This document shows, one piece after another, positions 20,482 to 30,638 of a DNA stretch of 64,000 nucleotides. Each line of letters begins with the position of its first letter. The stretch's first letter is position 1. The notes below the pieces were generated by a model. It ran no database searches. It saw only the letters and a list, made by a program, of their open reading frames with translations, and was not told the origin of the DNA. The DNA is taken from the IMG/VR virus record IMGVR_UViG_3300020411_000935, positions 18,873-82,872 of that record; one strand, given 5' to 3'. The translations under genes were made by a program, and so were the position numbers. Source of the stretch: a virus.

Positions 20482-21441
20482 ATGAAAACAATTAGATGGG
20501 TTCTAGCACACGAACCAATTGAATTGTTTCTAAGAGCTGCGAGAAAGTTCAAGGCATCTATGGAAGCAATCGCACCAGGTGCTCTGAACATCGAAATTCT
20601 TACACTCTCTGAGTACGCTGAGAAGTATAATAACGGTGAGTCAATTACTAAGCACGACTTACTAGATCTAATGGCAGAAGGGAAGATTGAGGTTTCCCAG
20701 ATGTACACCTCAACATTAGGTCGTAAGCACAACAAAGATTTCTGGGCATTAGATATGCCATTCTTGTTCCGTGATCATGATCACGCAAGTCATGTCTTTG
20801 AAGGTCCTATTGGTAAGTCACTACTTGATGGTTTAGCAGATCCTGCTAAAGGTGAAAAGGGCGGAGTAAAAGGTTTAGCGTTCACATACTCAGGTGGATA
20901 CAGAAACATCCCTGCAAACGCAGAAATACATAAGATCGAAGACTTTGAAGGACTTGAGTTACGTTGTAACAAATCTCCTATCGCTATTGAAACTCTAGAA
21001 TGCGTTGGTGCTAAGACAGTTCCAATCGAATTAGAGCAAATCAACGAAGGAGTTCAGTCTGGAATTATCGTTGGTGGAGAGTCAACATACCCTCGCTTCT
21101 TTGGATTGAAGCAGAATGAGTGTATGAATACAATCAACGACACATCACACAGTCTATTCCTTACATCAATCATTGTAAGTGAAGAGTTCTGGAACTCTCT
21201 AGACAAAGATCTTCAAGATAAGATCCAAGACGCATCATTCGATGCTGCTAGAGCAGAAAGAGTTTGGTCTGTGGAAGACATTGACTTAGTCAAGTCTGCA
21301 TGTGCCGATGAGAACATCAACGTTGTCACTATGAGCGACGAAGAGAAGTCTAGATTCAAAGAAAAGACAGCATACATCTATGACAAGTATGCACACTTGT
21401 TCCCAGAGGGACTTGTGGATTCTATAAAAGAAACAAAATAA
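20482..21441 (+). CDS. TRAP-type solute-binding protein (DctP-like) without signal peptide
   Basis: 319 residues. The fold is recognisable from MPFLFRDHDHASHVFEGPIG, LAFTYSGGYRNIPAN, and GLELRCNKSPIAIETLECVG followed by GAKTVPIELEQINEGVQSG, which in DctP proteins binds a carboxylate with a conserved Arg. Bacterial members are periplasmic; this one begins MKTIRWVLAHEPIELFLRAA with no hydrophobic leader, so it should stay in the cytoplasm or enter the virion. It is a stand-alone gene with its own leader and terminator. Confidence 0.85.
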   Translation: MKTIRWVLAHEPIELFLRAARKFKASMEAIAPGALNIEILTLSEYAEKYNNGESITKHDLLDLMAEGKIEVSQMYTSTLGRKHNKDFWALDMPFLFRDHDHASHVFEGPIGKSLLDGLADPAKGEKGGVKGLAFTYSGGYRNIPANAEIHKIEDFEGLELRCNKSPIAIETLECVGAKTVPIELEQINEGVQSGIIVGGESTYPRFFGLKQNECMNTINDTSHSLFLTSIIVSEEFWNSLDKDLQDKIQDASFDAARAERVWSVEDIDLVKSACADENINVVTMSDEEKSRFKEKTAYIYDKYAHLFPEGLVDSIKETK

Positions 21442-24614: not shown

Positions 24615-24801
24615 TGAGTTGATCGAGGTCTATAAGGTACAGAAGACTCGTCGAAAACAAATCATGGTTAAAGAAGTTGAAGACTTCCAACGCTTTTTCT
24701 ATGCTATAACTGGAGCCATAGATAAATATAAGCAAATGCAATATGTTGGACTGCATTATATTGAATCCAACAAAAAATCAATCTACGAAAAATTGAAGTG
24801 A
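24580..24801 (+). CDS. 73-residue helical hypothetical protein
   Basis: Charged helices: LNQLIDELIEVYKVQKTRRK then VEDFQRFFYAITGAIDKYKQ, probably coiled coil. Nested between two overlapping neighbours (start inside the nuclease-like gene, GTGA overlap with the next). Function unknown; T4-like phages often have short helical scaffold proteins in such places. Confidence 0.55.
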   Translation: MKQSSELNQLIDELIEVYKVQKTRRKQIMVKEVEDFQRFFYAITGAIDKYKQMQYVGLHYIESNKKSIYEKLK

Positions 24802-25697
24802 AACAGTTCACACAATTCATAACTGAAGCAAGAACCACTAAGGCATCGCAAGAAGCGAAGCGTTTAGGTCTCGTTGGTGATGGTCATGGAGACTGGTATG
24901 ACAGACAAGGAAACCTGAAGGCAAAGACTGTCAAGGGTGAACTTAAGATGTTCAGTGGTCAAGGCAGTGGTGAAGATGAGATGGGCACTCGTGGATCTAG
25001 TGCAGCAGCAACAGTTGCTAAACGTGGTTCGGGTGATGACGGACCTACACTTGCAAGTAAAGTTGCAGCAAGGTCAGTACAAACAGCACAACCCAATCCA
25101 AACTCTGCCAATGGACAGGCAAAGGCAGCACTACAAAATGTCAGTAGAGAGAACCCACTTACGATTGCGTTTGATAAATTTGACAAAGATGATGTCACCG
25201 ATAACATACTTGCTACAGTAGAGGAAGTATCAGGTGGAGAATACTTCTACATTTTTCCAAGTAGAGACACTGAAATTGAGGAACTAAAGAATGCATATCC
25301 TAAGATTAGCGAGTCCATCGTTGACGATGCAAACGCAGAAACAATCTACGACGTCTTACAATCACTCTATGAAAATGGATTTGACGCAATTAATATCGTT
25401 GTACGACAGTCCAGAGCAAAAGAAATCTCAGAGCTAGCATTGAAAGCAAACGGTCAACTCTACAATTATATTATGATGAACGTCATACCTGTAGATGAAC
25501 GTACTATAAGAGAGCAATATTTGGCAGGAGATATATTCAAGAATGGTTCAATGATTGAGTCACACAGTAGAGTAGGACAGATCTTTAGACGTGGTGCTAA
25601 TCATCTGATTTGTGTTGATGAGAATAAAGAAATCTTCAGAGCATGGATATCAGAGGCAAAAGAAATAGATAAACTATTCCTGCCACTTGATTTTTGA
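24798..25697 (+). CDS. Putative internal head protein with capsid-targeting N-terminus
   Basis: 299 residues, GTG start. MKQFTQFITEA resembles the capsid-targeting sequence of T4 internal proteins (MKTYQEFIAEA), which the prohead protease gp21 cuts after Glu; here the cut would follow Ile-Thr-Glu10. A Ser/Ala/Gly-rich linker (about 60-120) joins it to a compact C-terminal domain (ENPLTIAFDKFDKDD onward to KLFLPLDF) that I do not recognise. By analogy it may be packed in the head and injected. Two capsid-targeted-type proteins frame a Lys-rich gene pair here. Confidence 0.6.
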   Translation: MKQFTQFITEARTTKASQEAKRLGLVGDGHGDWYDRQGNLKAKTVKGELKMFSGQGSGEDEMGTRGSSAAATVAKRGSGDDGPTLASKVAARSVQTAQPNPNSANGQAKAALQNVSRENPLTIAFDKFDKDDVTDNILATVEEVSGGEYFYIFPSRDTEIEELKNAYPKISESIVDDANAETIYDVLQSLYENGFDAINIVVRQSRAKEISELALKANGQLYNYIMMNVIPVDERTIREQYLAGDIFKNGSMIESHSRVGQIFRRGANHLICVDENKEIFRAWISEAKEIDKLFLPLDF

Positions 25698-25703
25698 TAA
25701 ATA
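25696..25703 (+). promoter_or_regulatory. Late-promoter-like box GATAAATA
   Basis: GATAAATA matches the T4 late box at 7 of 8 positions, overlaps the stop of the preceding gene, and stands 23 bases before the ATG of the Lys-rich gene at 25727. It is followed by ATACG as in other copies. Confidence 0.5.
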
Positions 25704-25726
25704 ATACGATAAGACTTAGGAAAGAA

Positions 25727-26518
25727 ATGAGTAATCCCTTTACACAAGTATACGATGATCTAAGATCACCTTATTTGCAAGAGAAAAAAGCAAAGAAAGA
25801 TTATGATGGTGATGGTAAGATTGAAAGTGGTTCCAAAGAACATGCTGGTGTAGTACATAATGCTATACAGAAGAAGAAAGGTGGCAAACCTGATGGTCAG
25901 GACACTCGTACTGAGGGTAAAGCATATGGACTTTACAAAGGGGATGGTAAAGTAAGGATTGGTCAGAAGCAGGAAGAGAAGAAACCACCAAGAACTGCTA
26001 AAGGTGCTATGGCATATGATGGTCCTAACAAGGCAGCATCTGAAGCAAGAGATAGAATCATTGCTAAGACTAAGGCAAAGAGAGCGAAGTTGAAGAAGGA
26101 AGACTGGAGAGCAGACTTAGGGTTTGAAATAGTTGAGCATCATCAAAAGGATGAAAATGGTAATGTCATTGAGCATGAAGATGAAGCAGATGGAACACCT
26201 AGTTCTGTAGAGGAAGCAGTAAAGGGAGAGAAGTTAGACATCAAGACAACAGGTGTAAAGAACAAGGTCGAGATCAATCCTGAGATGAAGACCGAAGGAT
26301 ATGGTGGGATGGCGAAGAAGAAAAAGAAAAAATTTAGTGAGAGTCTAAAGCAAGCACGTAAGAACATTGGTATGGATCCTAATAAACCTTCCTGTTGGAA
26401 AGGTTACAAGGCAACTGGTACCAAGATGAAGGGCGGTAAGAAAGTTCCTGATTGTAAGAAGGAATCTCTAATGGATAAAGTAGAGACTGACGCACTCAAG
26501 CTGTTCAATGCTAAATGA
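25727..26518 (+). CDS. Lys-rich modular protein, putative head-internal
   Basis: 263 residues from ATG 25727 (TAGGAAAG 3-9 bases upstream). By my count 51 residues are Lys. Short modules recur from other phage proteins: KKDYDGDGKIESGSKEHAGV (EF-hand-like D-x-D-x-D-G), a run of six Lys near 205, and KPSCWKGYKATGTKMKGGKK with Cys before and after. No enzyme motif. A highly basic protein next to capsid-targeted ones suggests DNA packing inside the head. It overlaps the next gene by 11 bases. Confidence 0.65.
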   Translation: MSNPFTQVYDDLRSPYLQEKKAKKDYDGDGKIESGSKEHAGVVHNAIQKKKGGKPDGQDTRTEGKAYGLYKGDGKVRIGQKQEEKKPPRTAKGAMAYDGPNKAASEARDRIIAKTKAKRAKLKKEDWRADLGFEIVEHHQKDENGNVIEHEDEADGTPSSVEEAVKGEKLDIKTTGVKNKVEINPEMKTEGYGGMAKKKKKKFSESLKQARKNIGMDPNKPSCWKGYKATGTKMKGGKKVPDCKKESLMDKVETDALKLFNAK

Positions 26519-28904
26519 AAAAGCAGTCTCCCGAAAACAACAAAGATTCTTCGGGATGGTTAGAGCGGCTCAAAAAGGTGAGGCGAAAACTACCTCACCT
26601 GAGGTTGCCAGAACTGCTGCCAGCATAAAGATGAAAGATGCAAAGAAGTTTGCATCAACTAAACATAAAGGACTACCTGAAAAGAAAATGAAAAAGGAAT
26701 CTGTAAGTGAAGACGCTAAAATGAGGAGGCAGAGTGATGAGAAACTCGCTGCTGCTCATAAGAAGTTTAGTAGTATGGATCAGAGTCCTGCTAACTCTTT
26801 CATGAAGAAAAGAATAGAGAAGGAAATCAATAGAAGAAAGAAGAGTGTAAAGGAAGATAAGGAAGCGTATCATACCATGTCTACTAAAGAGTTCAACAAA
26901 ACTCACAGAGATTTCAAGAGTGGTTCAAAGAAGAAGGGTAATGCAAGAGTAACAAAGGGAGTCACTAATCCATCAGGTACTACTACACCTGTGTCCAGAC
27001 GTGTAAAGTTTTCTGACGAGTACATATATGAATTAGACTTGAAGAAGATAGGTAAGAAGGTAATCAACAAAGCAAAAGAGGTCTGGAATAGACCTATTAT
27101 GAAACCTAATATTACTAAGGATCAGCACCTACAGAAGATAAGGAACTCAGGTGGAGACACATCACATTGGGAGTCAACACAACAAGAGGGTGTATTCACT
27201 ACAGGTGCAGCATTGACTGCTGCTGGTCTTGCAGCATGGAAGTTTGCTCAAGGTATGAAGGCAAGAAACCAGATGAAGAAATCTATTGACACACCTGGTA
27301 CTAATCTTAATAACATAAAAAGAGCAACCGATCAGAAGAATAAACTTCTTCAGCAATTGAATCAATCACACGAACCAGAAGGTGAGATGACTGAAGGATT
27401 CTATCAAAAAAGATATACCACTGGTGGATATAAGACTGTGGGTAAAAATAAGAGGATGGATAAGTCAAATAAAAGATCTGGTGATAGTAAAGCACAGTAT
27501 AGAGAACTACATAAAGATCTAGCGAAAATAAAAAAGGAAGAGACTATTGTAGAGAAGAAAAAGATGGTCAAGATCAAGGTCAATAGACCTATCAAGACTA
27601 AGGTAACTGACATTGGACCTGGTGGTAAGGAATATGTTAGAAAGGATTGGAGTGAAGAGACTCTAACTGAGATAAAGTTTAGTTTTAGAAGGACATCTAA
27701 ACCTAAGGAGACAGAAAGGAAACCACAGAAAGCACAAGACGCTGGTGCTAGAGGTAGAAGAATGCTCAAGAGAAGAGAGTATGCTGCTAAGATATCAGGT
27801 AGTGAGGACAATGTGCCTGATGATCTAAGAGATAGTGTACAATATGAGCAATCATGTGGCGAAGGGATGTATTTCTGTAAGGAGAAAGGTAAGTGTATGC
27901 CTATACCAAAGGGTAGTAAGGTAGAGAAGGGTGGTAACCTTGTCAAAGAGACATCTGTAGCACTCAAGTTTGGAACAAGTGGAACAGATCTTAGTATTGG
28001 CGGTACATCTGTAAGAAATACAATCAATAATGTAAAGACAGGAGTAAATGCCATCAAGAACATCAAAAAAGATGGTCTTGTAAAAGGTATTAAGAATACT
28101 TTCACCAAAACTAAGGTAGAAAAACCATCTATAGCAACTAACATTGACAATGCAATCAAGAACTTCAAGAAGGAAGAGACTGAGTTGGATAGAATACGTA
28201 ATGCAATCAAGACAAAGACTATGAATGGTAAACCACTAACTGATAAGCAGATAGAGGGTTTGAAAGCTGGTCTTACACAAGGTGGTAACAAGGTACAAGA
28301 GGGGGCTGCTTGGACAAAAAAGTCTGGAAAGTCTCCATCAGGGGGACTAAATGAGAAGGGTCGTAAGTCTTATGAACGTGAGAATCCTGGCTCAGATTTG
28401 AAAGCACCTAGTAAAAAGAAAGGTAATAAGAGAAGAGCATCATTCTGTGCAAGGATGAGTGGTATGAAGAAGAAGTTGACCTCTAAGAAGACTGCAAATG
28501 ATCCTAATTCTAGAATCAACAAGTCTCTCAGAGCATGGAACTGTGAGTATGAACCTGAAACACCTATGCTACCTGAAGCAACTCGTCTAAAGAAAGAGAA
28601 GGGTTATGATAAAGGTGGTACCAAGAAACCTACAGGTCCTAAGGTAAAGGACGCTGCTCTTGATGCTGTAAAGAAAAAGTATAAGGGTCAGATAATGAGG
28701 AGTGGTAGCAACCAACCTAAGAAGGTGAAGGGTGCGAAGACTACTGGTGTTGGTAAGTATCTTGCTAGACATAAGGAGAAGCAACAACTCAAGAAAGACA
28801 CTAAGGAGATGGGTTATGGTAGTGATACAAAGTCTTATGTAAATGCTAGAGCAAGATATGGTAGTAAGGAGAACATGAAATCTGGTAAGGGATTAGGAAC
28901 ATGA
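26508..28904 (+). CDS. 798-residue Lys-rich mosaic protein with DUF3008 and DUF6321-like modules
   Basis: The N-terminus (KAVSRKQQRFFGMVRAAQKG to FASTKHKGLP) is a DUF3008 module. Later modules: a hydrophobic helix near 245-260 (TGAALTAAGLAAWKFAQGM), CGEGMYFCKEKGKCMPIPKG near 453, and GLNEKGRKSYERENPGSDLK through RASFCARMSGMKKKLTSKKT near 615-680, a DUF6321-like block. Modules are joined by poly-basic linkers, with several L/M-x-E sites (LPEA, LTEI, MTEG) that could be prohead-protease cuts. Probably a polyprotein-like internal head component. Enzyme activity is not evident. Confidence 0.65.
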   Translation: MLNEKAVSRKQQRFFGMVRAAQKGEAKTTSPEVARTAASIKMKDAKKFASTKHKGLPEKKMKKESVSEDAKMRRQSDEKLAAAHKKFSSMDQSPANSFMKKRIEKEINRRKKSVKEDKEAYHTMSTKEFNKTHRDFKSGSKKKGNARVTKGVTNPSGTTTPVSRRVKFSDEYIYELDLKKIGKKVINKAKEVWNRPIMKPNITKDQHLQKIRNSGGDTSHWESTQQEGVFTTGAALTAAGLAAWKFAQGMKARNQMKKSIDTPGTNLNNIKRATDQKNKLLQQLNQSHEPEGEMTEGFYQKRYTTGGYKTVGKNKRMDKSNKRSGDSKAQYRELHKDLAKIKKEETIVEKKKMVKIKVNRPIKTKVTDIGPGGKEYVRKDWSEETLTEIKFSFRRTSKPKETERKPQKAQDAGARGRRMLKRREYAAKISGSEDNVPDDLRDSVQYEQSCGEGMYFCKEKGKCMPIPKGSKVEKGGNLVKETSVALKFGTSGTDLSIGGTSVRNTINNVKTGVNAIKNIKKDGLVKGIKNTFTKTKVEKPSIATNIDNAIKNFKKEETELDRIRNAIKTKTMNGKPLTDKQIEGLKAGLTQGGNKVQEGAAWTKKSGKSPSGGLNEKGRKSYERENPGSDLKAPSKKKGNKRRASFCARMSGMKKKLTSKKTANDPNSRINKSLRAWNCEYEPETPMLPEATRLKKEKGYDKGGTKKPTGPKVKDAALDAVKKKYKGQIMRSGSNQPKKVKGAKTTGVGKYLARHKEKQQLKKDTKEMGYGSDTKSYVNARARYGSKENMKSGKGLGT

Positions 28905-29212
28905 AGAGTTATAAACAATTTGTAACTGAAATGCCAGCACCTTATAATGATTACAAAGAACTGGCAAAGGATAAAGGTCTTGATCTCACTGATGCATTTC
29001 AAAGAAGAAAAGCAATTAGAATGTTCAGTTCTATGCAGAGAATGGGTGTGCCTAAGGGTGTAAAAGAGGGTAATGTCACTGGTATCAATGACGGTGGTAT
29101 GAAGGATGCTCAGAATCAAGCGAACAAAGATATGAAGAACACTAAGTATGACCCTACAGAGGGTAAGAGACGTGGTAAGGGACTGTTAGATAGATTACTA
29201 AAAGGAGTGTAA
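28901..29212 (+). CDS. Putative internal head protein with capsid-targeting N-terminus, small
   Basis: 103 residues; the ATG overlaps the preceding stop (ATGA). MKSYKQFVTEM again resembles T4 MKTYQEFIAE, with a cut expected after Val-Thr-Glu10. The rest is basic and polar (RRKAIRMFSSMQRMGVPKGV, KRRGKGLLDRLLKGV). It closes the group that began at 24798. Role in the head is inferred from the N-terminus and context. Confidence 0.6.
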   Translation: MKSYKQFVTEMPAPYNDYKELAKDKGLDLTDAFQRRKAIRMFSSMQRMGVPKGVKEGNVTGINDGGMKDAQNQANKDMKNTKYDPTEGKRRGKGLLDRLLKGV

Positions 29213-30066: not shown

Positions 30067-30438
30067 ATGAAATTTGATGAACTAAATGATGACAATTATG
30101 TGCTATTTGCTATAAAACATTATGAAAATCCTCATGCTGCCACCATGGAAGACTTTGAGGAGGACTTAAAAAGATTCAAGTATATCAAAAGGTTGATGAA
30201 GAAATATGTAGTATCAGGGGAACTAAAGCATCACCTGATACTCAACCATATGATTATTTGTTTTAATGTATTTGGCGAAGGTGCAATACCGTTATTCTTC
30301 TACAAGATTGATAAAGAGTATTGGTCTCTTATCAAAACTTTCTTACAATTCCTGAATCGAATACCAGATTTTCCTAAGACTGGTCTCGATAGTATACCAA
30401 CACACAAGGAAGCATACGTTATTCTAAATTCTATCTAA
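30067..30438 (+). CDS. Conserved phage hypothetical protein (DUF7207-like)
   Basis: 123 residues. MKFDELNDDNYVLFAIKHYE, then FEEDLKRFKYIKRLMKKY and LILNHMIICFNVFGEGAIPL match a family I recall near structural genes in T4-like marine phages. Mostly helical, no catalytic pattern. It overlaps the next gene by one base. Confidence 0.7.
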   Translation: MKFDELNDDNYVLFAIKHYENPHAATMEDFEEDLKRFKYIKRLMKKYVVSGELKHHLILNHMIICFNVFGEGAIPLFFYKIDKEYWSLIKTFLQFLNRIPDFPKTGLDSIPTHKEAYVILNSI

Positions 30439-30638
30439 TGAAGGATTGGAAAAGCATAAGAGAAGAGATGATGTCCACCGATCCTGGTAGTACTGGGAAG
30501 GCAGGTTTCTCCTCGCAAGCAGATGACGAAGGTCCTGTGGCAGGGTATGATAAAGGGATGAAACCTAAGAAAAAGAAGAAGTATGCAACTGCTGGTCATG
30601 GATCACGTAGAAGATGGATGAACAGTGGACCCAAATAA
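30438..30638 (+). CDS. 66-residue basic protein, head-module type
   Basis: DWKSIREEMMSTDPGSTGKA then AGYDKGMKPKKKKKYATAGH and GSRRRWMNSG. The Lys run and the K-Y-A-x-x-G-x-G-S-R-R module recall the Lys-rich proteins just upstream, so it may also enter the head. Overlaps the next gene by 14 bases. Confidence 0.55.
   Translation: MKDWKSIREEMMSTDPGSTGKAGFSSQADDEGPVAGYDKGMKPKKKKKYATAGHGSRRRWMNSGPK

Follow-up and report, generated by a model that had tools for sequence, protein, structure and literature searches.

We analyzed a 64,000-nucleotide stretch of DNA (the window), bases 18873 to 82872 of the 82,872-base virus record IMGVR_UViG_3300020411_000935. In it, two genes of a T4-like cyanophage, 24798 and 28901 (genes are named by their first base in the window), probably encode internal head proteins with lysine-rich, head-packaged partners. 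Both open reading frames (ORFs) begin where the first-pass annotation had placed them, with MKQFTQFITEA and MKSYKQFVTEM, and the two genes between them, 25727 and 26508, are as rich in lysine as it had said (51/263 and 144/798 residues, or 18 to 19%). The same annotation had likened the two starts to the capsid-targeting sequence (CTS, or tag) MKTYQEFIAEA of the T4 internal proteins. As read from NC_000866, T4 ipII and ipIII do begin in this way; ipI, which also encodes an internal protein, begins MKTFKEFTSTTT. The virus record further encodes the prohead protease gp21 (Peptidase_S77, E 2.5e-35), for which a search had been proposed, the scaffold protein gp22 (T4_CASP), and the major capsid protein gp23 (Gp23), so the machinery that the proposal calls for is present. 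The gp23 of this phage has a tag-like AFLSE/A at residue 52, and thus the tag and the likely capsid maturation site are similar.

We described the tag by the DNA pattern RTG-AAR-NNN-TWY-NNN-NNN-TTY-NTN-NNN-GAR, which translates to M-K-x-[FY]-x-x-F-[LIVMF]-x-E. The pattern was composed after the starts of 24798 and 28901 had been seen, yet it encodes the T4 consensus. It matched the window exactly twice, at those two starts, and never in 100 shuffled sequences (mean, 0.00); the starts of 25727 (MSNPFTQVYDDL) and 26508 (MLNEKAVSRKQQ) do not carry it. Because T4 ipI lies outside the pattern, true cases escape it. Across 15 whole records (14 cyanophages and T4), the ATG form of the pattern gave 22 matches in 13 records and the reversed control none. 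Once translated, these matches were the T4-GC190 protein in 11 of the 14 cyanophages, T4 ipII and ipIII, T4 gp61.1, a SAM lyase of S-CREM2, a DUF6321 domain directly behind the tag in S-CREM1, and six other unknowns. The RTG form matched the S-SCSM1 record twice, with no control match.

Two further observations concern the tag. T4 gp61.1 (L154:2467-2631), a lysine-rich protein of 54 amino acids that starts MKTFKEFIKED, is encoded between genes 41 and 61, the place that the island occupies in cyanophages. It is absent from the table of T4 head proteins in the accessible text of PMC9026906, and it may be an overlooked member of the tagged head proteins. A family of about 105 to 109 amino acids (L140, L144, L153, and L236) has the CTS-like start MK[ST][FY]xxF[LM]SESVxIxGDFNG; its members SSZBM1_191 and SSCSM1_30 lie near terminase genes and are absent from the virion lists.

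Gene 24798 is a member of the T4-GC190 ("cytidyltransferase") family, which has been listed in print as a metabolic enzyme or auxiliary metabolic gene. By tblastn, matches were found in 384 phage records; in 46 of these, the match covered 80% of the query or more. Most of the cyanophages examined have the family gene flanked by gp41/mazG on one side and gp61/nrdA on the other. The S-CREM2 copy is located upstream of gp61/nrdA but far from gp41/mazG. In the window, a gp61-like ORF (31018) and an nrdA-like ORF (31983), both named by eye, are found 3' of the island. We sampled the family as the best 80 of 585 viral-contig loci, which were identified through internal motifs, independently of the N terminus, and ranked by likeness to the Syn9 protein. 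N termini were counted in 76 of the 80, as two loci (L062 and L066) are truncated at a contig end and the aligned part of two others (L095 and L104) starts at residue 79; 7 of the 76 rows have a tag shorter by one residue (MK[FL]xxF[LI]xEA) and stand outside the 67 unique N termini. In these 67 sequences, F7 and E10 are invariant (67/67 each), F or Y occupies position 4 in 66, and A11 occurs in 64; position 8 holds L, I, F, or V, and residues 3, 5, 6, and 9 vary. According to the accessible text of PMC9026906, residues 4 and 7 of T4 IPIII act mainly in targeting and residues 8 and 10 in processing, a map with which the conserved positions agree position by position. The alignment that had been proposed as a check bears out the tag in T4-GC190. 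In the 28901 family, all four positions (aromatic 4, F7, aliphatic 8, and Glu10) are retained in just 4 of 8 loci. We judge that 24798 is very probably a capsid-targeted protein.

Behind the tag lies a conserved piece of about 40 residues, which we call module 2. A hidden Markov model of module 2 matched 114 ORFs among the loci collected (overlapping loci kept), 84 with and 30 without the nucleotidyltransferase motif. The 30 comprised 21 copies of the type in the window, 4 kinases (L013, L014, L016, and L020), and 5 large proteins (L013, L014, L016, L018, and L020, the one in L020 being annotated as Cas9). All five large proteins and the S-CREM2 kinase have a CTS-like stretch upstream of module 2; the tag of the L016 kinase is aliphatic (MKRLGRLLAE), and those of the L013 and L014 kinases are degenerate. 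Conversely, the tag is retained where module 2 is missing, in S-CREM2 ORF154 and, in the one-residue-shorter form, in SSZBM1_140. A reading of the large proteins as HNH nucleases was a by-eye impression that we set aside; they had no Pfam match. The Cas9-annotated virion protein of S-CREM2 (L020:7704-10313), which has a CTS-like stretch and module 2, had no Pfam match at 0.01 and matched phrog_3561, a family of unknown function; its Cas9 name looks doubtful.

The body of T4-GC190 is, in relatives, a nucleotidyltransferase with the motif GRFNPP[TH]xGH, and PF01467 was found in both relatives scanned. In 24798, DKFDKDDVT takes the place of this motif, and nine relatives (L024 and L031 to L038) also lack GRFNPP, the nearest ones having DKFDKDDVT or a similar sequence. 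The enzyme domain of 24798 is a conserved copy, probably inactive, as judged from its sequence, and so more likely a binder than a catalyst here. Its structure model had a mean predicted local distance difference test score (pLDDT) of 69 and a predicted template modeling score (pTM) of 0.49, with residues 1 to 5 and 7 to 12 below a pLDDT of 50. A fold search of the Protein Data Bank (PDB) with this model gave no match at or below 1e-3. The weak matches (MscS, Tudor domains, and, at rank 41, one nicotinate mononucleotide adenylyltransferase) would be compatible with a Rossmann-like region and a small beta domain at the C terminus, although they prove nothing. The protein contains more [LIVM].E sites than its shuffled versions (11 versus 5.1; P = 0.004).

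T4-GC190 proteins have been recovered from virions. In the accessible portions of the proteome papers, they were detected in purified S-SM1 virions (PMC3037559), in the virion table of S-SZBM1 (PMC9146016), in S-SCSM1 virions (PMC9602691 and the labels of the record), and in the virion list of S-CREM2 (PMC10665884); no packaging signal is named there. Through these homologues in four proteomes, the family of 24798 may be placed in the mature virion. We then asked how the motif M..[FYL]..[FYLW][ILVMF].E at residue 1 is distributed over the 219 genes of S-CREM2, which has 52 listed virion proteins, 24 of them structural. Five of the six motif genes are in the virion list (Fisher P = 0.0032, or 0.00024 when the 24 structural proteins are left out): ORF6 (SAM lyase), ORF13, ORF14 (kinase), ORF136, and ORF154 (nucleotidyltransferase). 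The sixth, ORF175, is a 55-amino-acid ORF outside the list. At offset 0, the motif core occurred 6 times against 0.14 expected from the other offsets. Two of the S-CREM2 virion proteins, ORF12 (Cas9 annotated) and ORF14, have both a CTS-like sequence and module 2; that of ORF12 starts only at residue 18, some 17 residues into the protein, as far as the CTS-like stretch is concerned.

As a replication of this test, S-SZBM1 failed with the fixed motif, which occurs there in two annotated genes (SSZBM1_191 and SSZBM1_192), neither among the 30 listed virion proteins. Its virion-listed nucleotidyltransferase, SSZBM1_140, has the shorter form MRFRQFIIEA, a form that we admitted only after seeing this protein. 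Allowing it adds SSZBM1_140 and the unlisted S-CREM2 ORF30 and gives 5/7 in S-CREM2 (P = 0.009) and 1/3 in S-SZBM1, so that in both phages together 6 of 10 motif genes encode virion proteins against a base rate of 82/437 (P = 0.004). Of the two S-SCSM1 genes with the pattern, one is labeled as a virion protein. Genes 89 to 93, 95, and 97 of that phage carry the label, which amounts to 7/10 of genes 89 to 98 and 7/15 between mazG and primase.

To examine the remaining genes of the island, we compared the window proteins with all 219 S-CREM2, 10 S-SCSM1, and 13 S-SZBM1 proteins. A 48-residue stretch of 25727 with the module CWKGYKATGTKMKGGKKVPDC is 81% identical in the virion protein SSZBM1_139, and 25727 also weakly matches the virion protein SSCSM1_92 (26 residues, E 0.005). 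The N-terminal module of 26508 is 71% identical to the virion protein SSCSM1_93, but 72% to SSZBM1_194, which is not virion listed; its DUF6321 domain is 36% identical to the virion protein SCREM2 ORF137, whereas the more similar SSZBM1_192 (83%) is outside the list. Gene 30438 matched the virion proteins SCREM2 ORF160 and SSCSM1_97. This small protein resembles the N arm of gp23 (GFSSQADDEGPVAGYD versus GFSGGAAVGGPVAGFD), and it matches phrog_696, "major head protein." The proteins matched by 29250, 30067, and 30625 in this comparison were not virion proteins. The set is wider than the interval 24798 to 29212 of the first-pass annotation, and 30438-30638, with its virion homologues, is probably part of it. 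The annotation had proposed a set that is processed by protease, condenses DNA, is packed in the head, and is ejected into the host. Of these proposals, packing in the head is supported by virion homologues for 24798 and for modules of 25727 and 26508; for 28901, no such homologue was found. In our judgement, 25727 and 26508 are fairly likely to be head-packaged partners. No Pfam family exceeded the cutoff for 25727 or 28901.

The L/M-x-E sites that had been noted in the lysine-rich proteins exist, but they are no more frequent than in shuffled sequence ([LIVM].E in 26508, 12 versus 8.5, P = 0.12; in 25727, 4 versus 3.4, P = 0.46), and we rejected these counts as evidence of processing. The edge of the DUF6321 domain gave a narrower but stronger pattern. 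In 79 of the 86 usable contexts (88 unique), the first Trp is preceded by a Glu at a distance of at most 4 residues (the Glu content upstream predicts 33%), though the upstream sequences differ, and in 74 contexts a small residue follows this Glu. The binomial P of about 6e-30 is no true probability, since the contexts are related sequences. For the same reason, and because the Glu may belong to the domain, we do not accept it as proof of cutting. In several contexts (L147, L204, L207, and L195), the upstream stretch is CTS-like. A model of DUF6321 (pLDDT 84, pTM 0.53) had no PDB match, and we found no mention of the domain in the open literature. In P-SSM4 (L009:8335-8925), the counterpart of the C-terminal segment of 26508, compared by eye, is a separate protein of 196 amino acids with the start MLSFKAYLAEK, an arrangement suggesting that modules have been shuffled between proteins with and without a tag.

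For 28901, tblastn of the phage collection gave no match at 1e-5. Four loci of its family (L128 to L131) join MKTFKQF[KT]E directly to GNV..., and the window protein has GNV after VKE56; the core conserved in these loci therefore begins just after a Glu. We consider 28901 probably capsid targeted.

Table 1. Features of the island, in window positions
Position	Strand	Feature	Details
24798-25697	+	T4-GC190 family protein, 299 aa	GTG start, MKQFTQFITEA; tag, module 2, degenerate nucleotidyltransferase domain, small C-terminal beta domain
24798-24827	+	Capsid-targeting sequence MKQFTQFITE	Predicted gp21 cut after Glu10, codon 24825-24827
24831-24953	+	Module 2 of 24798, approximate extent	Residues about 12-52; also in kinases and large proteins of other cyanophages
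25727-26518	+	Lys-rich modular protein, 263 aa	ATG inside ORF 25694-26518; start MSNPFTQVYDDL; no CTS by pattern
26508-28904	+	Lys-rich modular protein, 798 aa	Start MLNEKAVSRKQQ; N-terminal module, DUF6321 domain, C-terminal segment
28299-28301	+	Glu598 of 26508 protein (VQE/GAAW)	Candidate gp21 site at DUF6321 edge
28901-29212	+	Basic protein, 103 aa	Start MKSYKQFVTEM; capsid-targeting sequence MKSYKQFVTE
30438-30638	+	Small Lys-rich protein	Resembles gp23 N arm; virion homologues

Upstream of these features, 20482-21441 encodes a DctP-type solute-binding protein of a tripartite ATP-independent periplasmic (TRAP) transporter (PF03480, E 1.2e-40) in this T4-like cyanophage. The adjoining genes 21488 and 22591 encode proteins with the motif NLLWSGGIDSTT and had no Pfam match at 0.001.

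From these observations, we propose the following sequence of events. Residues 4 and 7 of the tag would dock the protein on the prohead core, and residues 8 and 10 would present the chain to gp21, which would cut after Glu10 before DNA packaging; we judge a cut at this residue likely. The mature protein would then stay beside the DNA inside the head and would most likely pass into the host. Ejection and action in the host are possible, and in our judgement slightly favored. The lysine-rich proteins would be head-packaged partners assembled from shuffled modules, at least one of which would be bounded by a Glu/small-residue junction open to a gp21 cut. More tentatively, and with a little less than even confidence, we suggest a modular form of head delivery. 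In this scheme, a portable tag, often with a second module, would bring unrelated enzymes (nucleotidyltransferase, kinase, SAM lyase, and the Cas9-annotated protein) into the head; gp21 would cut the lysine-rich polyproteins at Glu/small-residue boundaries into basic DNA-packing peptides; and all of this would enter the host. T4 gp61.1 may belong to the same scheme.

Several results weigh against this interpretation. Two of the 78 T4-GC190 loci with an N terminus (L095 and L104; MKKFSEFLGS) keep F4, F7, and L8 and lose Glu10, and the half of the 28901 family that departs from the tag keeps the targeting residues and has Lys or Thr at residue 8 and Glu at 9. No proteome homologue was found for 28901. 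In the accessible text of PMC3037559, T4-GC190 was undetected in S-PM2 virions, and it is unnamed in the available passages on 14 S-CREM1 virion proteins. Among the 28 nonstructural virion proteins of S-CREM2, 23 do not have the motif at residue 1, and thus the tag is not the sole way into the head. The 0/2 result in S-SZBM1 and the site counts in 25727 and 26508 point the same way, as does SSCSM1_30, which carries the pattern and no virion label. Finally, the authors of two of the proteomes, including PMC9602691, allow in their accessible text for carry-over of abundant proteins.

This last concession is what would be needed if the N terminus were just a regular element of the T4-GC190 fold or a peptide that binds the host, with a coincidental likeness to T4 and with virion enzymes that are carry-over. 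The two unlisted S-SZBM1 motif genes would also fit. However, similar tags are found on cargos with no relation to one another (nucleotidyltransferase, kinase, SAM lyase, and DUF6321), and the Cas9-annotated protein has one at residue 18. Conservation falls on the positions that were mapped in T4, most of the first 12 residues of 24798 are modeled with the low pLDDT given above, and in S-CREM2 the motif is associated with a place in the virion list. We consider this explanation quite improbable. A harder case to set aside is that the tagged proteins are prohead-core (assembly) components like T4 gp22, gp67, and gp68, most of which gp21 would destroy or release, with no host function. In T4, gp21 cleaves the core proteins, and the greater part of them leaves the head; the tagged SSZBM1_191, SSZBM1_192, and SSCSM1_30 are missing from virion lists. 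The enzyme domain of 24798 is without its active-site motif, and proteins that are modular and rich in Lys and acidic residues resemble, in our judgement, core material. Nevertheless, T4-GC190, the kinase, the SAM lyase, and the Cas9-annotated protein were recovered from virions, and the 84 of 114 module-2 ORFs (not deduplicated) that retain the nucleotidyltransferase motif would have no need of it in a scaffold. We therefore consider a purely structural role in the core doubtful. The lysine-rich proteins might also serve DNA condensation only, as packaged counterions, with nothing acting in the host; their lysine content and the lysine-rich virion proteins SSCSM1_92, SSCSM1_93, SCREM2 ORF136, and SCREM2 ORF160 would agree with this. 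Since the other relatives of T4-GC190 keep the enzyme motif and 26508 is a series of conserved modules and no plain polycation, we find it unlikely.

Head proteins delivered by a tag would answer a question that two groups have raised. In the accessible text of their papers (one being PMC9602691), metabolic enzymes or kinases were reported in cyanophage virions, and the choice between cargo and carry-over was left undecided. A tag on these virion-found enzymes suggests how they enter cyanophage particles and makes delivery into the host testable; a conserved tag of the gp21 type on the same proteins gives a mechanism and predicts further cargo from sequence alone. T4-GC190, a listed auxiliary metabolic gene, is suggested to be a head protein, and protein injection by ocean viruses becomes testable. 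The first-pass annotation had considered such a set undescribed for cyanophages, and in the open literature (titles and the starts of abstracts, with subscription papers such as those on Syn9 and S-PM2 outside this scope), we likewise found no description of a capsid-targeting sequence or internal head proteins in them. The sole paper that pairs "capsid targeting sequence" with cyanophage has cyanophages only in its reference list.

The island is best read as a T4-like internal-head-protein system with other cargo. It shares with T4 IPI, IPII, and IPIII the start M-K-x-[FY]-x-x-F-[LIV]-x-E (ipII and ipIII) and a gp21 in the same genome. Past the tag, no likeness was noted: the cyanophage cargos are enzymes and modular lysine-rich proteins, and their cleavage and ejection are presumed. 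T4 Alt, a head-packaged ADP-ribosyltransferase (accessible text of PMC9026906), is similar in that an enzyme and not a basic peptide is carried in the head, although the enzyme is a different one. Also comparable are the ejection proteins of the giant phage SPN3US, which are stated in the accessible text to enter the cell, and DarA and Hdf of phage P1; these are also phage head proteins, of other phage groups, and are likened here by their available descriptions only. The S-CREM2 virion kinase ORF14 and the Cas9-annotated ORF12 have a CTS-like sequence and module 2 in common with 24798, with unrelated cargo. A further known relative is the T4-GC190 virion protein of S-SM1, S-SZBM1, S-SCSM1, and S-CREM2, which resembles a nicotinamide mononucleotide adenylyltransferase (NMNAT-like). 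By sequence, position, and N terminus, 24798 is a member of this family, in a lineage that has lost GRFNPP[TH]xGH.

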